Shown in pieces: positions 755 to 22,131 of a DNA stretch of 22,131 nt. Made by a program: the position numbers and the translations under genes. Position 1 is the first letter of the stretch. Every line of letters starts with the position of its first letter. Below the pieces are notes generated by a model. The model was not told the DNA's origin and did no database searches. It saw only the letters and a program-made list of their open reading frames with translations. The stretch spans positions 1 through 22,131 of the IMG/VR virus record IMGVR_UViG_3300019850_000034. One strand, given 5' to 3'. This DNA comes from a virus.

Positions 755-1759
755 ATGTTAAAAAAAGGAAAATTTAATATATTGATTGATGGACAGTTTG
801 GTAGTACAGGAAAAGGTTTATTTGCATCTTATATCACAGATAAATGTAATATAGATTTTGCTATTAGTAATAATAGTCCTAATGCAGGTCATACATTTTA
901 TAAGAATAATAAAAAATATATAACAAAACAATTACCTGTATCAGGTATATTAAATAAGAATTCTATTATATTTTTATGTGCTGGTTCTATTATTAATCCA
1001 TATATATTATTAGATGAAATAAAAAGATATAATATATCATCAAATAGATTGTTTATAGATCCAATGGCATCAATTATTGATATTAAAGATATTAATAATG
1101 AATTAGAAACAACATCTTCTGCAACATTAATATCATCAACACAAAATGGTGTAGGTAGATCATTATCAAGAAAAATAAATAGATCGGCAAAATTAGCTAA
1201 AGATAATAAGTTATTAAGCAAATATATTAGAGATATTGATATTAGATTGTTATTAGATAAAGGTTATACGGCTTTAATGGAAATCCCTCAAGGACTTGGA
1301 TTGTCATTATGTTCAGGTCTTAAATATCCTTATTGTACAAGTAGAGAAATAACTGTGTCTTCTGCTTTATCTGATGCACAAATACATCCATATTATCTTG
1401 GGAATGTATTGTCTTGTATAAGAACATTTCCAATAAGAGTTGGCAATATAAAAGTAGGAAATAAAGAAATAGGTTATAGTGGCCCATTTTATGAAGATAG
1501 TAAAGAAATAAAATGGGAAGATATAGAAGTAAATCCTGAATTAACTACAAATACAAAAAGGATACGAAGAATAGCAACATTTTCTATGATACAATATCAT
1601 TATATGTTAGATATATTGATGCCTGATTATATTTTATTAAATTTCTGTAATTATCTTAATAAAGATAAATTAAATGAATTGCTTCTAAAATTACCAGAAA
1701 TTACACATCTTGGATTTGGGCCAAAAAAAACAGATATAATAAAAAGAAATACATATTAG
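755..1759 (+). CDS. purZ-like: PurZ-like adenylosuccinate synthetase homologue
   Basis: This 334-aa protein is a phage member of the PurA fold, about 100 residues shorter than bacterial PurA. Seen in order: a P-loop-like GQFGSTGKG (residues 13-21) matching PurA GTQWGDEGKGK; PNAGHT (42-47) matching HNAGHT; STQNGVGRS (128-136) matching the IMP-loop GTTGRGIGP; PYCTSR (192-197) matching PYVTSS; RTFPIRVG (223-230); TTNTKRIRR (264-272) matching the aspartate-binding TTGRRRR; and GFGPKKTD (320-327) matching STGPDRTE. The PurA catalytic Asp is Ser17 here, as in phage PurZ enzymes that convert dGMP to N6-succino-2-amino-dAMP on the way to 2-aminoadenine. The PurA GTP-base motif (TKLD) is replaced by LLNFC near 294-298, which fits ATP rather than GTP use. 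A 1-base gap after the upstream stop and no clear SD suggest coupled translation. PurZ activity is inferred; no DatZ or DpoZ gene is in the window. Confidence 0.85.
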   Translation: MLKKGKFNILIDGQFGSTGKGLFASYITDKCNIDFAISNNSPNAGHTFYKNNKKYITKQLPVSGILNKNSIIFLCAGSIINPYILLDEIKRYNISSNRLFIDPMASIIDIKDINNELETTSSATLISSTQNGVGRSLSRKINRSAKLAKDNKLLSKYIRDIDIRLLLDKGYTALMEIPQGLGLSLCSGLKYPYCTSREITVSSALSDAQIHPYYLGNVLSCIRTFPIRVGNIKVGNKEIGYSGPFYEDSKEIKWEDIEVNPELTTNTKRIRRIATFSMIQYHYMLDILMPDYILLNFCNYLNKDKLNELLLKLPEITHLGFGPKKTDIIKRNTY

Positions 1760-2613: not shown

Positions 2614-3750
2614 TTATCCTTCTCCACCTTCTTTACATTCTTTTCTTTGATATTGTTTTATGCCACATTTGTCAGCTTTATGTATTTCATTATGACAAGC
2701 TTTACATAAAGTTATACAATTGTCTGCATCAGCTGATTCAATAGGATTAACTTCTATACCTTCATAATGGTGGCAATGCAATTCAACATCGATTGCCCCA
2801 CATTTCTGGCAGGTATAATTATCTCTTTTTAGAACACATTTCCTTAATACAGGTTGTACTTCTCTTGAAGTATTAGTTTTATACCCTTTTGGATATAAAA
2901 TTTGTCTATATGTAGGACATGCTTGCTTACATTCATTAGAACAATATAAATTGCGTTCTCCTGATTGTTTACCATTTATACATTGTATTTTCATTTGTAT
3001 AGAATTCATAGTAGGTATATGCCATCTATCACAATACATGCATTTTACTTCTAATACATTATTGTCTTCTTTATTCCTTCTGCAAGCAATACCATATGGT
3101 TTTAATTGCTTTGTGTATGTATTATATACAGGTATATTATTTTTTGCATATATAATACCATTATATTTATTACCACATTTAGGACAACCATTACCTTGTA
3201 AATGAGCATTTGGTGTTTGTTTAAATATCCCATGTTTATGACATATTATTTTTACTTTAGTTTTATTATTCCTATATTGTACTAAAGAATAATTATATTT
3301 ATCACCATGAATACAATAAGCATCTTCTATAAATTGTTGAGTTGTCTTTTTAAATTTATTTGATAATTCAAATACACCACATTTAGGACAACCATTTCCT
3401 TTTAAATGAGATCCAGACATTTGTTTAAATATACCATGTTCAGGACATATTATTTTTACTTTAGTTTTTGCATTTATATATTTAACTAATTTATAATTAT
3501 ATCTATCACCATGTTTGCAATAAGCATCTTCTATAAACTCTTCTGTTGATTTTTTAATATTACCTGCACATTTAGGGCATCCTTGTCCTTTTAAATGAGA
3601 TCCAGACATTTGTTCAAAGATGCCATGTATATGACATATAATTTTAACTTTAATTCTGTTATTTTTATAATCAACAAGTTTATAATTATACCTATCACTA
3701 TGCTTGCAATAAGCATCAATGATAAACTCTTCTGTTGTTTTTCTTTTCAT
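2614..3750 (-). CDS. HNH homing endonuclease with three zinc repeats
   Basis: This 378-aa protein has three N-terminal repeats of about 65 residues. Each opens with a K-T/S-T-x2-FI helix, then H-x-D-(K/R)-YNY, then a zinc-ligand set C-x2-H-x15-C-x2-C. A linker domain with CMYC and further cysteines follows, then an HNH nuclease (CQKC, LHCHH, ADADNC, CKACHNEIH). Such repeats probably bind DNA and the HNH domain cuts it, as in free-standing phage homing endonucleases; from memory the repeat resembles domains annotated DUF723. It is the last gene of the minus-strand group gp16-HNH-HNH, 6 bases after the previous stop, with no SD. Its first residues are identical to those of the neighbouring HNH gene. 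Confidence 0.88.
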   Translation of the reverse strand: MKRKTTEEFIIDAYCKHSDRYNYKLVDYKNNRIKVKIICHIHGIFEQMSGSHLKGQGCPKCAGNIKKSTEEFIEDAYCKHGDRYNYKLVKYINAKTKVKIICPEHGIFKQMSGSHLKGNGCPKCGVFELSNKFKKTTQQFIEDAYCIHGDKYNYSLVQYRNNKTKVKIICHKHGIFKQTPNAHLQGNGCPKCGNKYNGIIYAKNNIPVYNTYTKQLKPYGIACRRNKEDNNVLEVKCMYCDRWHIPTMNSIQMKIQCINGKQSGERNLYCSNECKQACPTYRQILYPKGYKTNTSREVQPVLRKCVLKRDNYTCQKCGAIDVELHCHHYEGIEVNPIESADADNCITLCKACHNEIHKADKCGIKQYQRKECKEGGEG

Positions 3751-3782
3751 GATATTTTATTTTTCATCTAACATTTTTAATA
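3674..3782. repeat. 109-bp direct repeat, copy 1 (HNH/HNH junction)
   Basis: Bases 3674-3782 are identical to 5024-5132 (offset 1350). The unit covers the 5' end of an HNH gene, the 6-base spacer and the last codons of the upstream gene (LKMLDEK plus stop). Homology stops abruptly at 3783/5133, which marks a recombination joint. Confidence 0.95.
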
Positions 3783-5100
3783 TTTCTACACCTTCTTTGC
3801 ATTTCTTTCTTTGATATTGTTTAATGTCACATTTATCAGCTTTATGTATATTGTTATGGCAGGCTTTGCATAAAGTTATACAATTGTCTGCATCCGCTGA
3901 TTCTATAGGATTAACTTCTATACCTTCATAATGATGACAATGTAATTCTGTATCAGTTGCACCACATTTTTGACATGTATAATTATCCCTTTTTAGAACA
4001 CATTTCCTTAATGCAGGTTGTACTTCTCTTGAAGTGTTGGTTCTATCATCCTTAAATCCTTTAGGATATATTCTTTGTCTATATGTAGGACATGTTTGTT
4101 TGCATTCAATAGAACAATATAAATTTGATTCACCTGATTGTTTGCCGTTTATACATTTTATTTTATGATATACTGATCTTAATGTAGGTATATACCATCT
4201 ATCACAATACATACACTTAACTTCCAATACATTTTCATCTTCTTTATTTCTTTTACAAGAAACACCATAAGGACTTAATTGTTTTGCATATGTATCATAT
4301 AAAGGTATATTATTTTTTGCATATATAATACCTTTATATTCATTGTTACATTTAGGACATCCATGTTTAAGATTTATATGATTTCCCGCTCTTTGTTCAA
4401 ATACACCATGTTTATGACATATTATTTTAATTTTAGTTCTGTTATTTTTATATTGTATTAAAGAGTAATTGTACTTATCACCATGTATTCCTTGTGCCTT
4501 TTCTATAAACTCTTGTGTTGAGTTTTTAACATTACCTGCACATTTAGGACAACCACATCCTTTTAAATGAGAACTTGGTACTTGTTTAAATGTACCATGT
4601 ACAGGACATATAATTTTTACTTTAGTTCTGTTATTTTTATAATTAACAAGTTTATAATTGTATGTATCACCATGTATTTCTTGTGCCTTTTTTATAAACT
4701 CTTGTGTATAACTTTTTGCATTACCTGCACATTTAGGACATCCTTTTCCTTGTAAATGATATGATGGTACTTGTTTAAATGTACCATGTATATGACATAT
4801 AATTTTTACTTTAGTTTTTGCACCTTTATAATGTACAAGTTTATAATTGTATATATCACCATGTATTTCTTGTGCCTTTTTTATAAACTCTTGTGTATAA
4901 CTTTTTGCATTACCTGCACATTTAGGACATCCTTGTCCTTGTAAATGATATGATGGTACTTGTTCAAAAACACCATGTACAAGACATATAATTTTTACTT
5001 TAGTTTTTGCACCTTTATAATGTACAAGTTTATAATTATACCTATCACTATGCTTGCAATAAGCATCAATGATAAACTCTTCTGTTGTTTTTCTTTTCAT
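3757..5100 (-). CDS. HNH homing endonuclease with four zinc repeats and gp16-derived tail
   Basis: This 447-aa paralogue carries four of the C-x2-H-x15-C-x2-C repeats, the same Cys-rich linker domain and the same HNH domain (CQKC, LHCHH, ADADNC, CKACHNNIH). Repeats 2 and 3 are nearly identical in DNA. After KKCKEGVE, where the other copies end, the protein continues with ILKMLDEK, the same C-terminal residues as the adjacent gp16 gene. This tail comes from a duplication that also copied the intergenic bases and the start of the next HNH gene. Start at the minus-strand ATG 6 bases after the gp16 stop; no SD is visible, so translation may be coupled to gp16. Likely a free-standing homing endonuclease. 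Confidence 0.9.
   Translation of the reverse strand: MKRKTTEEFIIDAYCKHSDRYNYKLVHYKGAKTKVKIICLVHGVFEQVPSYHLQGQGCPKCAGNAKSYTQEFIKKAQEIHGDIYNYKLVHYKGAKTKVKIICHIHGTFKQVPSYHLQGKGCPKCAGNAKSYTQEFIKKAQEIHGDTYNYKLVNYKNNRTKVKIICPVHGTFKQVPSSHLKGCGCPKCAGNVKNSTQEFIEKAQGIHGDKYNYSLIQYKNNRTKIKIICHKHGVFEQRAGNHINLKHGCPKCNNEYKGIIYAKNNIPLYDTYAKQLSPYGVSCKRNKEDENVLEVKCMYCDRWYIPTLRSVYHKIKCINGKQSGESNLYCSIECKQTCPTYRQRIYPKGFKDDRTNTSREVQPALRKCVLKRDNYTCQKCGATDTELHCHHYEGIEVNPIESADADNCITLCKACHNNIHKADKCDIKQYQRKKCKEGVEILKMLDEK
4646..4964 (-). repeat. 189-bp tandem repeats inside the HNH gene
   Basis: 4646-4775 matches 4835-4964 with 2 mismatches over 130 bases at an offset of 189 bases (63 codons). Each unit equals one zinc-binding repeat of the endonuclease. 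Such near-identity points to recent in-frame expansion of the array. Confidence 0.9.
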
Positions 5101-9063: not shown

Positions 9064-9699
9064 ATGAGATTTCAGAGACATATATCAGAAAGTAATTCTT
9101 TCATAACAGTAGAAGATGTTAAACAAATAAAGAATGAATGCAAGGAATTTTTTTATAAAAGTAGATTTCTCAAAGTTAATTATAAATTATATAGAAGAAC
9201 AAGGAAAAATATCAAGACATTAATTCCTGTAATTCCAAGAAAAAATAGACTACCTTTGGATACACCAAAAGAAGTACATAATGAACTTGATAAGTTATTT
9301 AAAAAGGAATTTGGATGGAAAGTAAGGTCAGAAGGTGTTTTTTGTTCTGGCAATCCACCACCAAATACATATGGTCAATTATATTATATGTTTCCTGTAG
9401 GTAATTTTAAATATATATGGTCACCTGAAATAAGAGATTTAACAGTAGAACTTAATAATATGGAGATTATAAAATCATATGGAGATGATTTTTATCCTAA
9501 TTATCTTGATTTTGATGATACAGTAAAAGAAAAGTTAGAAATGATTATTAATGAATATCAAGATAATGATTTTCTTAAAGCTTTAAGTAGTGGTAAAGAA
9601 ATATCAATAAAATGTAAAAAATATTATATGTTAAAAGATATTGATGTAGAATCTCATGCAGATATATATACAGAATTATTTAGAGGTGATTTGCCATGA
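9064..9699 (+). CDS. Paralogue A, possible ADP-ribosyltransferase-like protein
   Basis: A 211-aa protein of a family I have seen in large phages without assigned function. It has LYRR (42-45), PRKNRLPLDTP (58-68), FGWKVRSEGVFCSG (83-96), a YG..YYMFPVGNFKYIWSPEIRDL stretch (103-125), and near the end SGKEISIKCKKYYML (176-190). An R in a LYR motif, a Ser-containing strand and a late Glu in a KEI strand resemble the R-S-E order of arginine-type ADP-ribosyltransferases such as T4 Alt/ModA, but this is inference by eye. The start follows the gp14 stop by 3 bases without SD, so translation is probably coupled. The next gene is a duplicate. Confidence 0.78.
   Translation: MRFQRHISESNSFITVEDVKQIKNECKEFFYKSRFLKVNYKLYRRTRKNIKTLIPVIPRKNRLPLDTPKEVHNELDKLFKKEFGWKVRSEGVFCSGNPPPNTYGQLYYMFPVGNFKYIWSPEIRDLTVELNNMEIIKSYGDDFYPNYLDFDDTVKEKLEMIINEYQDNDFLKALSSGKEISIKCKKYYMLKDIDVESHADIYTELFRGDLP
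9232..9350 (+). repeat. 119-bp near-identical block shared with 9852-9970
   Basis: The two blocks align without gaps at an offset of 620 bases with 6 differences, all transitions, four of them silent. They encode the PRKNRLPLDTP to FCSG core of the paralogous pair, while flanking sequence is much more different, which suggests gene conversion or strong constraint on the core. Confidence 0.9.
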
Positions 9700-10295
9700 G
9701 TAAAATAAGGCAAATATTAGAAGGTTCTTATATAAGTGATGATTTTATTGATAAAATAAAACATGATTGTGCTTATTATTTTCATGAAGTTGGTTATGAA
9801 AAACCTTTATATAGAGGTGTTAAAAAAATAATTAAAGAATATGATATTATTATTCCAAGAAAAAATAGACTACCTTTAGATACACCAAAAGAAATACATA
9901 ATGAACTTGATAAATTATTTAAAAAGAAATTTGGATGGAAAGTAAGATCAGAAGGTGTCTTTTGTTCTGGTTGGAAAATGGAAGTCACTAATTATGGTGA
10001 ACCATATATAATAATTCCTATAGGCAAATTTAAATATGTATGGTCACCTGAAATAAGGGATTTAACAGTAGATCTTGAATATTTAGATGTATTAGTTCAT
10101 TTAAATAATAAAACAAATATTATAATGTCTAAATCAGAATATTTACCTATATTAGAAAATGTTGTTTCGTCATATAAAGATAAAGATTTAGATGATGCTA
10201 TTATAAATGATAAAGAAATATCAATAAAATGTAAAGAATATTACATTATTAATGAAAATTATCTTGATATAAAATATTCAGATTTATTTAAATAA
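9696..10295 (+). CDS. Paralogue B of the possible ADP-ribosyltransferase-like pair
   Basis: This 199-aa protein duplicates its neighbour. It has LYRG (38-41, closer to the ADP-ribosyltransferase R motif than the first copy), PRKNRLPLDTP (54-64), RSEGVFCSG (84-92), an IPIGKFKYVWSPEIRDL stretch (107-123) and DKEISIKCKEYYII (172-185). The start overlaps the upstream stop (ATGA). N-terminal and C-terminal thirds have diverged while the centre is almost unchanged in DNA. Position between gp14 and gp15 is not a standard T4 gene position, so it is an insertion into the neck operon. It could be a virion-packaged effector or a structural accessory. Confidence 0.78.
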   Translation: MSKIRQILEGSYISDDFIDKIKHDCAYYFHEVGYEKPLYRGVKKIIKEYDIIIPRKNRLPLDTPKEIHNELDKLFKKKFGWKVRSEGVFCSGWKMEVTNYGEPYIIIPIGKFKYVWSPEIRDLTVDLEYLDVLVHLNNKTNIIMSKSEYLPILENVVSSYKDKDLDDAIINDKEISIKCKEYYIINENYLDIKYSDLFK

Positions 10296-10570: not shown

Positions 10571-11476
10571 ATGGGTGAAGATATAACAAGATTACAACAT
10601 GATATCAAAGATGGGTATCAATTTTATTATCAGGTGATGAGGAAAACCATTGTACAATTCCTTGATCTTTTTAATGATATTAAAATAGGTAGATATGATA
10701 CTGAAACTGGGCAATTATTATCATTTATTCAAATTCCTGTTAAATTTTCACCTAAAACAAAAAATTGGTATTGGATTGAAAAAATAGATTCAACAGGAAA
10801 ACGAATAAAAGATAAGATAATGCCTATAATAGGTATTTATCTTGTTGATATTGAAATGGATTCGGGTAGAAAGGTTAATAAGTTTTATTCTGCTGAAACT
10901 GGTTTTCATGAAAGATTAGGTAATAGACAATTAAAAAAAGAAAGATTTGTTAATCCTGTACCATATAATTATACATTTCAAGTTCAAATATTAGCAGAAT
11001 ATATGGTTGATATAATTCAAATAGTAGAACAACTTATGCCATATTTTGATCCTATGATGAATATAAAAATATCTATACCTGAACTTGATATAGATGGAGA
11101 AATAATACAAGAACTTGATTTAAAGGTTTTATATAATGGATCAAATAATGAAAATGCAGTAGGAATTGCGTCTGATGAATTAAGACATTTACAATGGAAT
11201 ATAGATTTTACTGTTGAAGGTTGGTTATTTAAACCTAAATACGATTTTCCTGTTATTAAAACTATATATGAAGATTTTATAATAGGAATGCAGAAAGATC
11301 CTGATAGTATATGTTCTGTATCAGAAACACCTTCTGGTGGGCCTGTTTTATTAGAAACTGTTGGGTTATCAGCAGAAAAATTTCCATTAGATGTTACAAG
11401 TCAAGAATTATCAGGATCATTATATGATAATTCTATAAAAACATTATATACGTTTGAAATTAAGGAAGAGTTATAA
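10571..11476 (+). CDS. 15: Tail terminator / sheath completion protein, gp15-like
   Basis: The 301-aa product matches T4 gp15 (272 aa) in order of motifs. There is an N-terminal YQVMRKTIVQFLDLFNDIKIGR segment like the RYATLMGDLFSNIQIKR of gp15, then the hallmark IVEQLMPYFDP (about 152-162; IVEQILPYFQP in T4). Later comes LRHLQWNIDFTVEGWLFKP (about 205-223; RRRIEWSLTFEVNGWMYPP in T4) followed by IKTIYEDF. gp15 caps the finished tail and provides the head-docking surface. An AAAAGG SD precedes the start. The stop overlaps the next ATG (TAATG). Confidence 0.9.
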   Translation: MGEDITRLQHDIKDGYQFYYQVMRKTIVQFLDLFNDIKIGRYDTETGQLLSFIQIPVKFSPKTKNWYWIEKIDSTGKRIKDKIMPIIGIYLVDIEMDSGRKVNKFYSAETGFHERLGNRQLKKERFVNPVPYNYTFQVQILAEYMVDIIQIVEQLMPYFDPMMNIKISIPELDIDGEIIQELDLKVLYNGSNNENAVGIASDELRHLQWNIDFTVEGWLFKPKYDFPVIKTIYEDFIIGMQKDPDSICSVSETPSGGPVLLETVGLSAEKFPLDVTSQELSGSLYDNSIKTLYTFEIKEEL

Positions 11477-11985
11477 TGAGTGATACAATACAAAATTTAA
11501 ATAAAGCAGTATCAAGTAATTATGAATTGATATTTCCAATATTACCTATAACAGAAAAACCTAAAGATATGGATATATTTTCATTGAATATTCATGGAAC
11601 TATAATACCATCAATGACTGTTGGAACAGTTGAACCATCTTGGCAAAATGCATCATTTCCAATGGCTATTGCACCGGTAACATTTGAACCTTGGAGTGTT
11701 GATTTTACCGTAGATTCTGATTTCTGTAACTGGTTTATATTATATCAATGGTTGTTATTTATAAATAATCCATTTACTGGTAAAGCAACATCATTAGAAG
11801 AATATTCCGTTAGAGCTTCTTTGAATTTTATAAATAATGATAAACAATCTGTAATGAGTATAGACATATATAATATATATCCTACATCATTAAATGAAGT
11901 ATCACTTTCACATAGAGATGGTGAAATAAATTTAGATTGTAATGTTAATTTTAATTATAGTTATTTTATACCTAAAAGAAAATAA
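11476..11985 (+). CDS. Tail-tube-like protein, possibly gp3-type tail completion
   Basis: This 169-aa protein has the size and pattern of tail-tube-fold proteins: NYELIFPI near the N-terminus (15-22), an IHGTIIPSMTVGTVEPSWQ loop, EPWSVDFTVDSDFCNWFILYQWL (about 74-96), and a closing strand set ending NVNFNYSYF. It resembles the true tube protein downstream (gp19) in outline but is clearly different, so it is a second member of the fold. Its coupling to gp15 suggests a tail-completion role like that of gp3, a baseplate tube initiator being the alternative. It is the last gene before a long leader region. Confidence 0.7.
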   Translation: MSDTIQNLNKAVSSNYELIFPILPITEKPKDMDIFSLNIHGTIIPSMTVGTVEPSWQNASFPMAIAPVTFEPWSVDFTVDSDFCNWFILYQWLLFINNPFTGKATSLEEYSVRASLNFINNDKQSVMSIDIYNIYPTSLNEVSLSHRDGEINLDCNVNFNYSYFIPKRK

Positions 11986-14093: not shown

Positions 14094-14606
14094 ATGAGTG
14101 AAGGTTTTAATTTAGCAGGATTTATTTCAAACTTAAATAAGTCTGATCTATCAAGAGGGTATGTTTTTTATCTACATTTTAATAATACAGGTTTTCTTGA
14201 TGATGCTGCAAGATATCTTGTTAAATCATCAAGTTTACCAGCACAAACAATTGATATCACAGAAGCAAATTGGCAAGGTAATGTATATAAACTTGGTACT
14301 ACAAATACATATTCAGATTTTACAGTTGATTTTAATGTAGATATTCAAGATGATTTAAGAACAAAATTATTTAAGTGGTCAGAAGATATTCATAAAGTAG
14401 ATGACAATATGCATGGTGAACCTACAAATTATATGAAAGATTTTACAATTGAACATTTAAGTCATACATCAGGAAAACCGATATTGACTTATACAATGCA
14501 TAAAGCATTCCCGACAACTGTTGGTGAAATGTCTCTTGATTATAGTGCAAAAGATATTGCTACATTTAGTGTAACATTTGCATATCAATGGCATACTGTA
14601 GAATAA
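14094..14606 (+). CDS. 19: Tail tube protein, gp19-like
   Basis: The 170-aa product matches T4 gp19 (163 aa) in size and position directly after the sheath gene. Typical features are the RGYVFYLHF strand (about 21-29), YLVKSSSLPAQTIDITEANWQGNVYKL (about 42-68), a DFTVDFNVD strand pair, and a C-terminal FTIEHLSHTSGKPILTYTMHKAFPTTVGEMSLDYS region (about 111-145) ending in a closing beta strand. Hexameric rings of this protein form the inner tube through which DNA passes. A strong AAGGAG SD precedes the start. Confidence 0.94.
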   Translation: MSEGFNLAGFISNLNKSDLSRGYVFYLHFNNTGFLDDAARYLVKSSSLPAQTIDITEANWQGNVYKLGTTNTYSDFTVDFNVDIQDDLRTKLFKWSEDIHKVDDNMHGEPTNYMKDFTIEHLSHTSGKPILTYTMHKAFPTTVGEMSLDYSAKDIATFSVTFAYQWHTVE

Positions 14607-14635: not shown

Positions 14636-15382
14636 ATGTCAAATCAATTAATACAATATTTAAATCAGTATAGTAATGATGTAGAACTTCCAAGTATAGG
14701 TAAAACAGTATCAATAAGACCTATTACAACAGGACAAATGAAAAGAGTATTAGCATATTCTGATAATGATGATCCTTTTGTGATAGATGATATTCTTGAT
14801 GATATTATAAATGATTGTGTAACAACAGAAGATTTTAATATCAATGATATATCTATTCAGGATAGATTTTCTTTAATTATTAACATTAGAAAAATTACTA
14901 AAGGTGATACTTATACTTTTCATACTAAATGTCCAGAATGTAAAACAGAACTTATTAATGTAATAGATATCAATAAGATGAAAAATAAACCGTATCCTGA
15001 AAAGATAAATCCTGTTATTAAACTAACGGATACATTATCAGCTAATATGTCTTTCATGACAAGAGGTATGCAAAAAGAAGCTGTTAATATTGTAAGAAAT
15101 GATAAAACACTTAATGAAGATCAAAAAATGGTAGAAATGGCGACATATTTATATGCAATTTCTATAGATTCTTTTGAAACACCTGCTGGTAATATAAATA
15201 ATGCAAGTGTAAATGATAAAAAAGAATTACTTGATAATTTAAGTGAAAAAACATATGAAAATATAACAAATTGGTTTAAAGAAGTAGATTATGGTTATGT
15301 TTTTACATATAAACCTTATTGTAGATTTTGTAAATGGGAAGATGAAGAACAAGATATACCACTATCAAGTTTTTTCTTCTAA
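14636..15382 (+). CDS. 26: gp26-like baseplate/tail assembly chaperone (0-frame product)
   Basis: The 248-aa protein resembles the T4 gp26 family: an N-terminal ELPSIGKTVSIRPITTGQMKRVL (about 17-39), acidic helices, a KITKGDTYTFHTKCPEC strand-knuckle with C99/C102, and a second CRFC knuckle at 229/232, together able to form a zinc ribbon. T4 gp26 works in baseplate hub assembly. The gene follows the tube and precedes the tape measure, the place where tailed phages encode tail assembly chaperones. The last codons SSFFF before TAA contain a slippery heptamer in frame and are followed by a GC-rich hairpin, so a second, longer product is expected. AAAGGTG is the SD. Confidence 0.8.
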   Translation: MSNQLIQYLNQYSNDVELPSIGKTVSIRPITTGQMKRVLAYSDNDDPFVIDDILDDIINDCVTTEDFNINDISIQDRFSLIINIRKITKGDTYTFHTKCPECKTELINVIDINKMKNKPYPEKINPVIKLTDTLSANMSFMTRGMQKEAVNIVRNDKTLNEDQKMVEMATYLYAISIDSFETPAGNINNASVNDKKELLDNLSEKTYENITNWFKEVDYGYVFTYKPYCRFCKWEDEEQDIPLSSFFF

Positions 15383-15405
15383 GGCATCTGATGTTATCAG
15401 ATGCC
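15370..15405 (+). promoter_or_regulatory. Candidate -1 programmed ribosomal frameshift signal
   Basis: The heptamer T TTT TTC (15370-15376) is in the zero frame as X XXY YYZ. A 6-base spacer, TTCTAA, contains the zero-frame stop. Then comes a perfect 10-bp hairpin (15383-15392 with 15396-15405, loop GTT), far richer in GC than its surroundings. After a -1 slip translation continues CTT CTA AGG CAT CTG ATG into the downstream 57-codon frame. Confidence 0.8.
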
Positions 15406-15564
15406 GATTTAAATAATATAATAGAAGAACAATATTATCTTTCTAAATATGCACATATATCTTATACTGAATCTACTTTAATGTCAGATTGGGAAAGAAC
15501 AATGTTATTAAACTTTATTATAAGGGATAATAAAGAAGAACAAAATAGTTATGAAAATATATAA
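15391..15564 (+). CDS. Frameshift extension of the gp26-like chaperone (57 codons)
   Basis: This short frame is in the -1 frame relative to the upstream gene and is reached exactly by the candidate frameshift, giving a fusion of about 309 aa (247 residues, then LLRHL, then these 57). It is acidic and helical, with IIEEQYYLSKYAHIS and a SDWERTMLLNFIIRD motif. From memory, a WER or ER motif before a helix is common in the second reading frame of tail assembly chaperones. Its own ATG (15391) lies inside the hairpin and only a weak AAGG precedes it, so independent translation is less likely but possible through coupling to the upstream stop. Confidence 0.75.
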   Translation: MLSDADLNNIIEEQYYLSKYAHISYTESTLMSDWERTMLLNFIIRDNKEEQNSYENI

Positions 15565-15610: not shown

Positions 15611-15652
15611 AAAGGGTATAATCTATATAAAAATAGGTTATACCCTTTTTTT
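15611..15652 (+). terminator. Rho-independent terminator before the tape measure gene
   Basis: A 16-bp stem with one G-U pair (15611-15626 with 15633-15648), a 6-base loop and a run of seven T (15646-15652). It is the strongest terminator in the window. The tape measure gene starts 26 bases later with no promoter visible in between, so the element probably attenuates readthrough. Confidence 0.9.
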
Positions 15653-15678: not shown

Positions 15679-18600
15679 ATGAAACAAACAAGTATAAATG
15701 ATATAATAAAAGGTTATACAGAATCAGTAGATGTAACAAAAGATAATATAGATGATTTAACAGTAGAAATAGCTATGATGGCAAAACAAAGTAGTGATTT
15801 TATTAAAGAATCTTCTATAACACGAGATGATATTTATAAAAATTTATCAAAACATATAGTATCTACATCAGATAGTGTAGAAGAATTGGATAATTCTATT
15901 AAAGAAACATCATCAAATGTAAAAGATAGTAATAAAGAAATAGTAAAAAACACATCAAATTTTTCTCAAATTATGGGCAATGCTGTAGATCTTACTAAAT
16001 CAAAATTTTCTGATTTAGATACTGTTGATACTGTTCAACAACATACTAATGATATGTTTAGAGGTGTAATGGGTGATACAATGAGACATTTTGATATGGG
16101 AATGTCTTTGTTTTCATCAATGAAAAATGATTTTAAAAAAATATTTGGTATTAAGAAAAAAAAGACAGGTGTTGAAAAAGAAGTTAGTGGTATTAGAAAA
16201 ATATTGTTGAAAGGTTTATTACTTAATAAACAAGAACATCTTGAAGATTTAAGAGAAAGAAAAGATAAAGATAAAAAAAGCATGTTGTTTATAGAAATTA
16301 TAGCCATGTTGATAGGTGGTTTGTTAAGAAAACTTATTTTACCATTTGAAATAATAATAGAAACATTAAAAACGTTTGCTAAAGGATTAAACTTAAAATT
16401 ATTATTTAAAGGTACTAATAAATTATCAAAATCCATTTTAAAAATATCTGAATCATTTAAAATGTTATATAATAATATGAAATCTATTTTAAAAATGAGA
16501 TTTGCTAACATTTTTAAGAAAGGTGGTATTATATTCAAACTTAGTAAATTCTTTTCAATGATAAAAGATAAATCTAAAGTTATAACATCTATTGTAAAAA
16601 CTTTTGCATTTAAGTCAAGAGTGTTTACACTTATATTTAAATCTATAAAAGCAGGATTTAAATTTTTAGGATGGCCATTACAAATTATTTTTTCATTAAT
16701 AGACTTTATTAAAGGATTTGCTAAATCAAATGAAAAATCATTCTTTGGTAAATTTAAAGATGGTGTTGTTGAAATGATAACATCATTTTTTGAAATGCCT
16801 ATTAGATTATTAGCATGGATGATTGAAAAAGTATCATTTGGTAAAATAAGAGGACTTGGTGATGATTGGATAAGTTTGTTTAGAGAAAATGTATTAGGTA
16901 TATTTGCTCCATTAACTTATGTATTAAGTATTATAAAAAATGTGGGTTCTACTTTAAATAAATTAGGTAAATTTGGTAAGATGTTGAAATTTATAGGTAA
17001 ATTATTTCCAAAGTTTATAGGTAAATTATTTTATCCGATAACTATTTTGCTTAGTGTATTTGATTTTGTAAAAGGTTTTGCTGAATCAGAAGATAAATCA
17101 ATTTTTGGTAGATTAAAAAGTGGTATAGTATCAGTTTTTATGGGTTTGGTTGAATTACCATTAAAAATATTAGGTTTTGTTATTGATAAAATTATATCAT
17201 TTGTAACTGGTTCTGATTTTACTGGTTCTGGTAATTCATTAATTAAAATAGTTAAAGGTACATTTTCATTTATTGTGGATTCAATATTAAAACCATTTAG
17301 AATGATATGGGAATATTTAAAAATGGTAGGAAATATTTTCACAGGTGATTTTGAAGGTGCTATTGAAAATATAAAAAATATAGGTAGAGAGATGTTTTCA
17401 CCTATTCTTGATTTTTTTGAAAATATAAGTCAATTTATATGGAATCTTATTCCTGATAAAATACAAGATAATATTAAAGAAATATTTTCACCTATTACTG
17501 GATTTTTTGTTAAAATAGGTAAGTTTGTTGGTAAAATACTTAGTTTTGTTGCCAGTAAATTAAAAAAGATACCTGTTATTGGTAAATTCTTTAAATCTGA
17601 TAATGAAAAGAATACTGAAAAAATTAATGACCTTGTTAAACAAAAACAAAAATTAAAACAAGATATAGCAAAACAGGAACAAGAAATAAAAAGTGGTGAT
17701 AATAGAACATGGGCAGGTAGAAAAAGAACAACCATAATAAAAAACAAAAAAGAAGATGTTGCCAAAATAAATAAACAGATAGAAGAAGAAAAAGCCAAAC
17801 AAGGAACTGTAGTTTATGAAAAGGTAAAAGGTGAATTAAAAGTAAAACATGATTATAGAACTGAATTTCAAAAACAAAGAGCTTTATCAAGAAAAGAAGA
17901 GTCTAAGAAAACAAAAGAAAAAATTCGTTCAAGAACTACAGATGCTACAGGTGCTACAGGTGTTGCAGGTATTACAGGTGTTAAATCTAAAGCTTATTCA
18001 CGAATAAAAAAAGAAGAAGGTTATAGAAAAAATTTATATCGTGATTCAAGAGGTTATTGGACAGGTGGCCATGGTACATTGATATCAAAAGATAAATCAA
18101 TTACTAAAAAACAAGCTAATACACTTGCAAATAAGAAATTCGGTTTTTCCGAATCTATGTCAAATAAAGAGAAATCATCATTATGGAATAAACAATACAA
18201 TAAAGATTTTATAAAAGCAAAACAAAGTATGGAAAAATACGCTCTTAAACAAGGTGTGCCTCTTAATGATAAACAAAAAGATGTATTAACAGATATGTCT
18301 TATAATATGGGCATTAAGAAATTATCAGGTTTTCATGATATGTGGGGTGCTTTGAAGAAAGGTGATACAAATAAAGCTGCAAATGAAATGATGGATTCTA
18401 AATGGTACGGTCAAGTAGGTGATAGATCAAAAAATCTTGTTGCTGAAATGAGATCTTCTAAACCATCACAACTTGAAGGTATAAATGGTGCTGTAATTGC
18501 TAAAGCAAATATGAAAAAAAGAGAAGTAGAAAGTAGAAAAGGTCTTGGAAAAACAATAAGTAAGAATATGAAGAATATGAATAAAACTGTAGCGTCAAAT

Positions 18601-18711
18601 CAACAAACACAACCTGTTGTTATAAATAATAACAACCAAAACCATGAACCACCAGAAGATATTGAAAGTATGAGCATTTTATGGTTAAATAAATCTTATG
18701 GATTAGGATAA
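15679..18711 (+). CDS. 29: Tape measure protein with C-terminal GH24 lysozyme domain
   Basis: At 1010 aa this is the longest gene. Residues 1-170 are polar and helical. Residues about 200-640 alternate hydrophobic helices and basic linkers, with an internal repeat at about 328-395 and 447-512 sharing DF.KGFA.S..KS.FG....G. A coiled, charged stretch (about 650-745) and a Gly/Thr-rich linker (754-768) follow. Then comes a T4-lysozyme-type domain (about 772-945) with the complete triad E780, D789, T795 at T4 spacing (E-9-D-6-T, in EEGY, YRDSRGYWT) and an N-rich tail. The first part sets tail length and probably inserts in the inner membrane at DNA entry; the lysozyme cuts peptidoglycan. In T4 the tail lysozyme is in gp5 instead. 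Weak AAGG SD. Confidence 0.9.
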   Translation: MKQTSINDIIKGYTESVDVTKDNIDDLTVEIAMMAKQSSDFIKESSITRDDIYKNLSKHIVSTSDSVEELDNSIKETSSNVKDSNKEIVKNTSNFSQIMGNAVDLTKSKFSDLDTVDTVQQHTNDMFRGVMGDTMRHFDMGMSLFSSMKNDFKKIFGIKKKKTGVEKEVSGIRKILLKGLLLNKQEHLEDLRERKDKDKKSMLFIEIIAMLIGGLLRKLILPFEIIIETLKTFAKGLNLKLLFKGTNKLSKSILKISESFKMLYNNMKSILKMRFANIFKKGGIIFKLSKFFSMIKDKSKVITSIVKTFAFKSRVFTLIFKSIKAGFKFLGWPLQIIFSLIDFIKGFAKSNEKSFFGKFKDGVVEMITSFFEMPIRLLAWMIEKVSFGKIRGLGDDWISLFRENVLGIFAPLTYVLSIIKNVGSTLNKLGKFGKMLKFIGKLFPKFIGKLFYPITILLSVFDFVKGFAESEDKSIFGRLKSGIVSVFMGLVELPLKILGFVIDKIISFVTGSDFTGSGNSLIKIVKGTFSFIVDSILKPFRMIWEYLKMVGNIFTGDFEGAIENIKNIGREMFSPILDFFENISQFIWNLIPDKIQDNIKEIFSPITGFFVKIGKFVGKILSFVASKLKKIPVIGKFFKSDNEKNTEKINDLVKQKQKLKQDIAKQEQEIKSGDNRTWAGRKRTTIIKNKKEDVAKINKQIEEEKAKQGTVVYEKVKGELKVKHDYRTEFQKQRALSRKEESKKTKEKIRSRTTDATGATGVAGITGVKSKAYSRIKKEEGYRKNLYRDSRGYWTGGHGTLISKDKSITKKQANTLANKKFGFSESMSNKEKSSLWNKQYNKDFIKAKQSMEKYALKQGVPLNDKQKDVLTDMSYNMGIKKLSGFHDMWGALKKGDTNKAANEMMDSKWYGQVGDRSKNLVAEMRSSKPSQLEGINGAVIAKANMKKREVESRKGLGKTISKNMKNMNKTVASNQQTQPVVINNNNQNHEPPEDIESMSILWLNKSYGLG
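17938..17982 (+). repeat. Five 9-bp repeats coding a Thr-Gly linker
   Basis: Five degenerate copies of ACAGGTGYT encode TDA-TGA-TGV-AGI-TGV, a collagen-like flexible linker that separates the tape measure body from the lysozyme domain. Confidence 0.85.
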
Positions 18712-19546: not shown

Positions 19547-20881
19547 ATGGCAAAAAGAAAAACAACACAACAGTTTATAGAAGATGCAAAGAAAGTGCAT
19601 GGTGATAAGTACAATTATTCTTTAATACAGTATAAGAACAATAAAACTAAAGTAAAAATAATTTGTCCTGAACATGGTGTATTTGAACAAAGACCAAATC
19701 ATCATTTAAAAGGACAGGGATGTAAAAAATGTAGTATAATATTAAAATTAAATGAACAAAGAAAAACAACACAACAGTTTATAGAAGATGCAAAGAAAAC
19801 ACATGGTGATAAATACGATTATTCTTTAGTGCAATATAAAAATGCAAGAACTAAAGTAAAAATTATATGTCCTGTACATGGTATATTTGAACAAAGAGCA
19901 ATAAATCATTTAGATGGTAGAGGTTGCCAAAAATGTGGTGGTACTATAAAAAAATCAACACAACAATTTATAGAAAAAGCACAAGAAATACATGGTGATA
20001 AATATGATTATTCTTTAGTTGATTACAGAAATGCACATACTAAAGTAAAAATAATATGCCCTGAACATGACACTTTTGAACAAAGCCCTCATTCTCATTT
20101 AAATGGTAGAGGATGTAAAAAATGTAAAAATATATCAATATCAAATATATTTAAAAAATCAATACAACAATTTATTATAGATGCAAAAAAAATACATGGT
20201 GATAAATACAATTATTCTTTAGTACAATATAAAAATTCTGATACTAAAGTAAAAATTATATGTCCTGTACATGGTATATTTGAACAAAAACCTGATAATC
20301 ATTTACAAGGATGTGGATGCCCTAAATGTGTAGGTAGATATAGAAAAAAATATGCAAAGAATAATATACCAGTTTATGATACATATGTAAAACAATTAGA
20401 ACCTTATGGTGTTTCTTGTAGAAAGAATAAAGAAGATTCAAATGTATTAGAAGTTAAATGCATGTATTGTGATAGATGGTATATACCTACATTAAGTTCT
20501 ATATGGAGTAAAATTCAATGTATAAATGGAAATTCATTAGGAGAATGTAATCTGTATTGTTCTAATGAATGCAAACAAGCATGTCCTACTTATAAACAAA
20601 TTTTATATCCTAAAGGATTTAAAGATGATAAAACAAATACATCAAGGGAAGTTCAACCTGCATTAAGAAAACTTGTTCTAAAAAGGGATAATTATACCTG
20701 TCAAAGATGTGGTGCAACTGATATAGAATTGCATTGCCACCATTATGAAGGTATAGAAGTTAATCCTATTGAATCTGCTGATGCAGATAATTGTATTACA
20801 TTATGCAAAAATTGTCATAATGATATACATAAAGCTGATAAATGTGGCATTAAACAATATCAAAGAAAAGAATGCAAATAG
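19547..20881 (+). CDS. HNH homing endonuclease with four zinc repeats
   Basis: A 444-aa member of the same family as the minus-strand pair. The four repeats have complete ligand sets at C40/H43/C59/C62, C108/H111/C127/C130, C171/H174/C190/C193 and C239/H242/C258/C261. A Cys-rich linker domain follows (CMYC 305-308, C325, C334, C338, C342, C346), then the HNH nuclease with CQRC 385-388, H398/H399, N415, CKNC 420-423 and H424/H428. It lacks an SD. It lies between the gp48-like gene and gp53, and the tail genes on both sides are intact, so it is free-standing and not intron-borne. Confidence 0.9.
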   Translation: MAKRKTTQQFIEDAKKVHGDKYNYSLIQYKNNKTKVKIICPEHGVFEQRPNHHLKGQGCKKCSIILKLNEQRKTTQQFIEDAKKTHGDKYDYSLVQYKNARTKVKIICPVHGIFEQRAINHLDGRGCQKCGGTIKKSTQQFIEKAQEIHGDKYDYSLVDYRNAHTKVKIICPEHDTFEQSPHSHLNGRGCKKCKNISISNIFKKSIQQFIIDAKKIHGDKYNYSLVQYKNSDTKVKIICPVHGIFEQKPDNHLQGCGCPKCVGRYRKKYAKNNIPVYDTYVKQLEPYGVSCRKNKEDSNVLEVKCMYCDRWYIPTLSSIWSKIQCINGNSLGECNLYCSNECKQACPTYKQILYPKGFKDDKTNTSREVQPALRKLVLKRDNYTCQRCGATDIELHCHHYEGIEVNPIESADADNCITLCKNCHNDIHKADKCGIKQYQRKECK

Positions 20882-21291: not shown

Positions 21292-22131
21292 ATGCCAAAA
21301 AGAAAAACAACTGAACAGTTTATAATTGATGCTAGAAAAGTACATGCTGATAAATATGATTATAAATTAGTTGATTATAAGAATGCAAAAATCAAAGTAA
21401 AAATTATATGCTTTGAACATGGTATATTTGAACAAGAAGCAGATTCTCATTTAAGAGGATGTGGTTGTCCTAAATGTGCAAATATGTATAAATCAAACAA
21501 AAAAAGAAAAACTATAGAACAATTTATAATAGATGCACAGAAAGTTCATAGTGATAAGTATAATTATTCTTTAGTTCAATATAAGAATAATAAGACTAAA
21601 GTAAAAATTATATGTCCTGTACATGGTACATTTGAACAAATACCAACTAATCATTTAAAAGGACAAGGTTGCCCTAAATGTGCAGGTAAATATGAAGAAA
21701 AATATTTTACTAATAATATACCTGTTTATAATACATACACAAATCAATTAAAACCATATAATATTGATTGCAGAAAAAATAAAAAAGATTTAAATGTATT
21801 AGAAGTTAAATGCATGTATTGTGATAGATGGTATATACCTACATTGAATTCTATACAAGCTAAAATACAGTGTATAAATGGAAATGGGTATGGAGAATGC
21901 AATTTATATTGTTCTGATACATGCAAACAAGCATGTCCTACTTATGCTCAAAAAATATATCCTAAAGGATTTAAAAATGATAGAACCAATACTTCAAGGG
22001 AAGTACAACCTGCATTAAGAAAACTTGTTTTAAAAAGGGATAATTATACCTGTCAAAAGTGCAGTGCAACTGATACAGAATTACATTGTCATCATTATGA
22101 AGGTATAGAAGTTAATCCTATTGAATCCGCA
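21292..22131 (+). CDS. HNH homing endonuclease with two zinc repeats, 3' end cut off
   Basis: The ATG follows the gp53 stop after one base, without SD. 280 codons are open to the window end. There are two zinc repeats (C-x2-H-x15-C-x2-C each), then the Cys-rich linker (CMYC, LYCSDTC) and the first half of the HNH domain (CQKC, LHCHH, ending at NPIESA). The missing part should hold ADADNC and the final CxxCH. It is the shortest array of the four copies. Confidence 0.9.
   Translation, partial: MPKRKTTEQFIIDARKVHADKYDYKLVDYKNAKIKVKIICFEHGIFEQEADSHLRGCGCPKCANMYKSNKKRKTIEQFIIDAQKVHSDKYNYSLVQYKNNKTKVKIICPVHGTFEQIPTNHLKGQGCPKCAGKYEEKYFTNNIPVYNTYTNQLKPYNIDCRKNKKDLNVLEVKCMYCDRWYIPTLNSIQAKIQCINGNGYGECNLYCSDTCKQACPTYAQKIYPKGFKNDRTNTSREVQPALRKLVLKRDNYTCQKCSATDTELHCHHYEGIEVNPIESA

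Follow-up and report, generated by a model that had tools for sequence, protein, structure and literature searches.

Positions 14636-15382 (+ strand) of the window, that is, the whole 22,131-nt stretch of viral DNA analyzed here, encode a 248-amino-acid protein with two CxxC pairs. This protein matches PF12322 (E 2.5e-22, 80.1 bits, above the curated cut-off of 24.5) and phrog_150 (E 2.7e-24), which identifies it as a gp26-family protein and a candidate short tail assembly chaperone (TAC-N). Its AlphaFold2 model is confident (pLDDT 89.6), and a Foldseek search of solved structures ranked the HK97 tail assembly chaperone 2OB9 first, but with an E value of 0.18. Superposition on 2OB9 with VIA-align aligned 83 of 107 residues (Z 7.4, rmsd 3.5), followed by 3KLU (Z 7.0) and 3FGX (Z 6.5), both of which we take to be phage tail chaperones, and by 5IR0 (Z 5.3), with all other structures at or below 3.2. 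The gp26 profile retrieved nothing significant among the sequences of solved structures, and family searches found no similarity by sequence to lambda gpG/gpGT. At Z values below 8, the comparison is supportive rather than decisive of a predicted HK97-type TAC-N fold, and the fold match by itself would be moderate evidence; considered alongside the neighbouring genes and the frameshift described below, it fits a chaperone of the gpG type.

Neighbouring genes encode the sheath, tail tubes and a sheath stabiliser. The next gene (15679-18711, + strand) encodes a 1010-residue protein with a C-terminal phage lysozyme domain (PF00959, E 5e-13, residues 777-921), which its place and length mark as the probable tape measure protein, no family match naming it as such having been found. 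Between both genes, a terminator scan located an intrinsic terminator (15611-15648, + strand; one found versus 0.2 expected). About 20 relatives (for example L032, L035, L037 and L059) have similar terminators in this position, and since their stems differ in sequence from one relative to another they are probably selected; the terminator may govern how much chaperone is made relative to tape measure protein.

Further features were recorded in the window. Two tail-tube-like genes, both matching phrog_45, flank the sheath gene (11476-11985 and 14094-14606, + strand), which suggests a tube duplication. The core of T4-type late promoters, TATAAATA, occurs 20 times against 12 expected, among others at 1773, 7214, 7220, 8254 and 14068 (+ strand), with several copies just upstream of gene starts. 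A 334-residue protein encoded at 755-1759 (+ strand) has PurZ, the succino-amino-deoxyadenylate synthase, as its best match, ahead of adenylosuccinate synthase (NF038379, E 7e-59, 199 bits, under the 300-bit cut-off), which hints at a diaminopurine-type DNA modification. Four related proteins (2614-3750 and 3757-5100, − strand; 19547-20881 and 21292-22131, + strand) are built of repeated KTTEEFI..HGDKYNYSLV..CPKC units and a C-terminal HNH-like region, and one of them matches the IscB model in its C-terminal part (E 1.5e-8); they resemble homing endonucleases that have inserted between genes for structural proteins. Finally, the adjacent paralogous genes 9064-9699 and 9696-10295 (+ strand) share PRKNRLPLDTPKE(V/I)HNELDKLFKK, and no family match was found for the former.

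A slippery heptamer closing the gp26-like frame

The gp26-like frame ends with TCA AGT TTT TTC TTC TAA and thereby carries, in phase, the heptamer T TTT TTC (15370-15376, + strand), which differs from the G GGA AAG of lambda. It is followed by a 6-nt spacer, TTCTAA (15377-15382), that ends with the zero-frame stop codon (15380-15382), and by a putative stimulatory hairpin (15383-15405) in which the arms GGCATCTGAT (15383-15392) and ATCAGATGCC (15396-15405) enclose the 3-nt loop GTT. The −1 frame, entered at 15376, stays open up to the TAA at 15562-15564 and yields 62 codons that would be read solely after the slip (15376-15564, + strand; junction peptide SSFF-LLRHLMLSDADL...). These are the elements of a canonical −1 frameshift signal: an in-frame X XXY YYZ heptamer, a spacer of 5-9 nt and a stable structure downstream. 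The genes of the window contain 59 in-frame X XXY YYZ heptamers, three of them of the T TTT TTN type, and only T TTT TTC at 15370 is followed by a perfect stem of at least 8 bp starting 4-9 nt downstream. Heptamer, spacer and open −1 frame are thus as described in the initial annotation, which had proposed from the letters alone that a −1 programmed frameshift produces an extended gp26-like chaperone. The hairpin that it had called perfect and GC-rich does pair perfectly over 10 bp, but just half of the stem is G-C, which is rich solely relative to the AT-rich genome in which it lies.

Joint conservation of heptamer and −1 frame

The window protein alone, used as query, had no matches in the viral contigs. 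Relatives in uncultured viral contigs were therefore reached through the sheath gene and then by gp26 alignment, which gave 72 loci; the junction set was made up of these, the window, L014 and ten cultured T4-superfamily phages, with duplicates removed. Start and codon counts refer to 62 loci and, after thinning by extension identity, to 56 representatives.

A T TTT TTN heptamer closes the gp26-like frame in 59 of the 61 other distinct loci (60/62 with the window), and a homologous −1 frame remains open for 50-69 codons past the stop in 60 of them (61/62 with the window). Both loci that lack the heptamer, Vibrio phage D495 (L022, 2214-2396) and the Serratia Ackermannvirus Kevin (L026, 2253-2420), read xTTTTC at this place and keep the −1 frame open. 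The sole exception as to frame is Synechococcus phage S-SCSM1 (L017, 3678-3871), which has the heptamer intact and its gp51-like part in the +1 frame, while its relatives B23 and S-CAM3 show the ordinary −1 layout; a sequencing error, a local rearrangement or a −2 shift may account for the displacement. The residue that precedes the two phenylalanines varies among F, D, N, S, G and H, and its codon nonetheless ends in T in 54 of the 56 representatives versus ~37 predicted by codon use. A synonymous-codon null model that ignores shared ancestry puts the logarithm (base 10) of the probability at about −19. The heptamer, the −1 frame and the homologous extension are hence conserved together across the T4 superfamily. 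The alignment check suggested at the outset, namely whether heptamer, hairpin and −1 frame travel together, was borne out for the first and the last of these, whereas the hairpin is limited to the subclade of the window. An indel error in the window sequence was ruled out, because independent records show the heptamer and the two frames as well.

The extension aligned weakly with phrog_634 ('baseplate hub assembly catalyst') when taken from the window (E 0.015), and with E values of 4e-6 to 8e-10 when taken from L038, L085 and L041, over profile positions 57-112. A profile of the fused proteins of the window clade aligned with the fused proteins of cultured T4-superfamily phages across the junction (E 6e-32), while T4 gp51 as a single sequence gave a weak alignment to the clade profile that covered the body region only. 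The link to gp51 thus derives from phrog_150 and phrog_634 together with the cultured-phage profile, and on these profile matches the extension (TAC-C) belongs with the gp51 C-terminus. In Kevin, the −1 extension matches phrog_9633, a family devoid of assigned function, which probably represents the second part of chaperones made by frameshifting.

A natural control comes from eight phages of the T4 type, T4 among them, that encode gp26 and gp51 separately. Vladimirov, Gautam and Davidson (2022) reportedly found frameshifting to be maintained in several groups of T4-like phages, with the T4 group relying on two genes instead. T4 gp51 combines a full-length gp26 relative (PF12322, E 4e-52, residues 1-201) with a C-terminal extension, and its residues 147-246 match phrog_634. 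In none of the eight phages does gp26 end with the heptamer; five of them retain Phe-Phe at the same place, written TTC TTT. Loss of the heptamer with retention of both phenylalanines indicates that the heptamer tracks the need for a frameshift and not the amino acids. The window shares with T4 gp26/gp51 the membership in PF12322/phrog_150 and the layout of a gp26-like body plus an extension. T4 itself, however, has two divergently transcribed genes and a gp26 end without the heptamer, whereas the window has one gene and a −1 frame; no second gp26-like gene of the T4-type arrangement was found among the open reading frames of the 22-kb fragment.

The hairpin, other stimulators and alternative readings

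The segment 15370-15430 folds at −19.6 kcal/mol (z −5.3), and none of 200 shuffled versions folded as well. Among seven distinct sequences of the subclade, 95.7% of the pair cells are kept and three pairs are changed on both sides; the fraction compares with 90.0% in shuffles and 30-54% when the stem is slid. The stem starts exactly 6 nt past the heptamer in eight sequences, L030-L032 and L035-L038 having the same spacing as the window. Conservation of the hairpin throughout the family was rejected, as z falls below −2 in only 18 of 63 loci. Distant relatives accordingly keep both frames without the hairpin, a constellation that the initial annotation had listed against frameshifting; this leaves the case for the frameshift unharmed. 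The same relatives, many of which have the heptamer and both frames without any stable stem at this place, would also suit a reading in which the heptamer alone drives the frameshift and the hairpin formed by chance or serves as a terminator. We consider this improbable, because the stem keeps a fixed 6-nt distance in eight sequences with pairing above that of shuffles, and because no T tract follows it and the actual terminator lies further downstream, at 15611-15648.

Some cyanophages (S-PM2, S-H34) carry instead a Shine-Dalgarno-like GGAGGG element ~10 nt upstream of the heptamer, which resembles a Shine-Dalgarno sequence more closely than any other place in their gene. An upstream stimulator of this kind was rejected for the window, where the value, 0.3 kcal/mol, corresponds to the 62nd percentile of its own gene. 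No Rfam match was found at the locus. Lineages thus seem to have different stimulators around the same retained heptamer. A broader scenario, which we hold to be evenly poised between right and wrong, is that all these loci represent one orthologous site at which the heptamer was kept superfamily-wide and the stimulator turned over (a hairpin in the subclade, GGAGGG in some cyanophages, nothing detectable in others), and that the heptamer disappeared once an ancestor of the T4 type duplicated the gene and hard-wired gp51.

The extension could also be a separate 57-residue gene, translated by reinitiation at the ATG 15391-15393 (+ strand) with TAAGG (15380-15384), 6 nt upstream, as ribosome-binding site and with no fusion made. 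Such an ATG with a usable Shine-Dalgarno-like sequence is indeed present in the window, and phage databases annotate the extension as a gene of its own, for example in S-PM2, S-SCSM1 and K567. The ATG is nevertheless not conserved: ATA replaces it in relatives that share the peptide, an ATG is missing from the first 17 extension codons in 42 of 62 loci, and ATG, GTG and TTG are all missing in 19 of 62. A separate, well-placed start across relatives, the observation that the initial annotation had flagged as speaking against a fusion, was therefore not seen. Furthermore, homology and openness of the −1 frame extend back to the heptamer, TAAGG is accounted for by the stop codon and the stem, and a separate gene gives no reason to keep the heptamer, which has been lost in precisely those phages that encode gp51 as a full-length gene of its own. 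Altogether, reinitiation is very unlikely.

Just as little credit is due to the proposal that the long form stems from transcriptional rather than ribosomal slippage. About 20 relatives do have nine T in succession, a length at which RNA polymerase is known to slip, but in the window and in over half of the relatives the run comprises just six or seven T before a different base, which is too few for efficient transcriptional slippage, and both the conserved heptamer phase and final C and the covarying hairpin at 6 nt fit a ribosomal signal.

Two chaperones from one gene and their place among known systems

Together, these data lead us to conclude with high confidence that this T4-superfamily phage makes its two tail assembly chaperones from the locus by −1 frameshifting of the gpG/gpGT type. 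Sequence comparison bears out both the slip site and the fusion frame, the conservation of the two together and, within the subclade, the covariation of the stem. The frameshifted, extended gp26-like chaperone predicted by the initial annotation is accordingly well supported as far as sequence and modeling reach, by the joint conservation, the lack of a conserved start, the loss of the heptamer where gp51 is separate and the HK97-like body. In the mechanism that we infer, including frameshift efficiency, the short:long ratio and the roles in assembly, most ribosomes would terminate at the TAA at 15380 and release the short, gp26-like TAC-N. A minority would pause at the 10-bp hairpin, 6 nt past the heptamer, while TTT is held by the tRNA in the P site and TTC by that in the A site; both tRNAs would slip one base back to TTT TTT, and the −1 frame would then be read to 15564. 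The gp51-type extension would form the last 62 residues of the resulting 309-residue fusion, TAC-NC. If the two forms act like gpG and gpGT of lambda, the short one would cover the probable tape measure protein, the product of the next gene, in many copies, while the rare long one would use its extension to recruit tail tube subunits.

The likeness to lambda gpG/gpGT (Xu, Hendrix and Duda 2004; PMC5009743) consists in a short and a long chaperone made from one gene by −1 frameshifting near its 3′ end, and in a site upstream of the tape measure gene, which in the window is only a probable one; compared with gpG, the body encoded in the window is longer and has two CxxC pairs. A 2016 review described the G-T frameshift as widespread in long-tailed phages 'except T4' (PMC5009743), and the initial annotation likewise knew of no description of it for T4 itself. 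For T4-like phages, chaperone frameshifting is already on record: citing papers credit Vladimirov, Gautam and Davidson (2022) with identifying the T4-like tail chaperone genes and, specifically, polyT slippery sites in TAC-N genes (PMC12846349), and PRFect cites the same work for separate short and long chaperone genes in some T4-like phages (PMC10885494). As portrayed in those papers, the chaperones of Vladimirov et al. very probably correspond to the same gene pair, with a gp26-type body and a gp51-type extension. Relative to that set as so portrayed, the window phage represents a deep uncultured lineage with a covarying 10-bp hairpin 6 nt past the heptamer. The chaperone locus of Vandenendeviridae and Andersonviridae (phage Adele, PMC12846349) belongs to phage families other than that of the window.

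The lineage and its hairpin are thus a further instance of an already known chaperone frameshift, which is conserved far beyond the cultured T4-like phages. The short 'gp51' gene annotated in many T4-like phages is most likely no gene but the second half of the fusion. The contrast with T4 offers a clean evolutionary control and a route to testing the short:long ratio in tail assembly.
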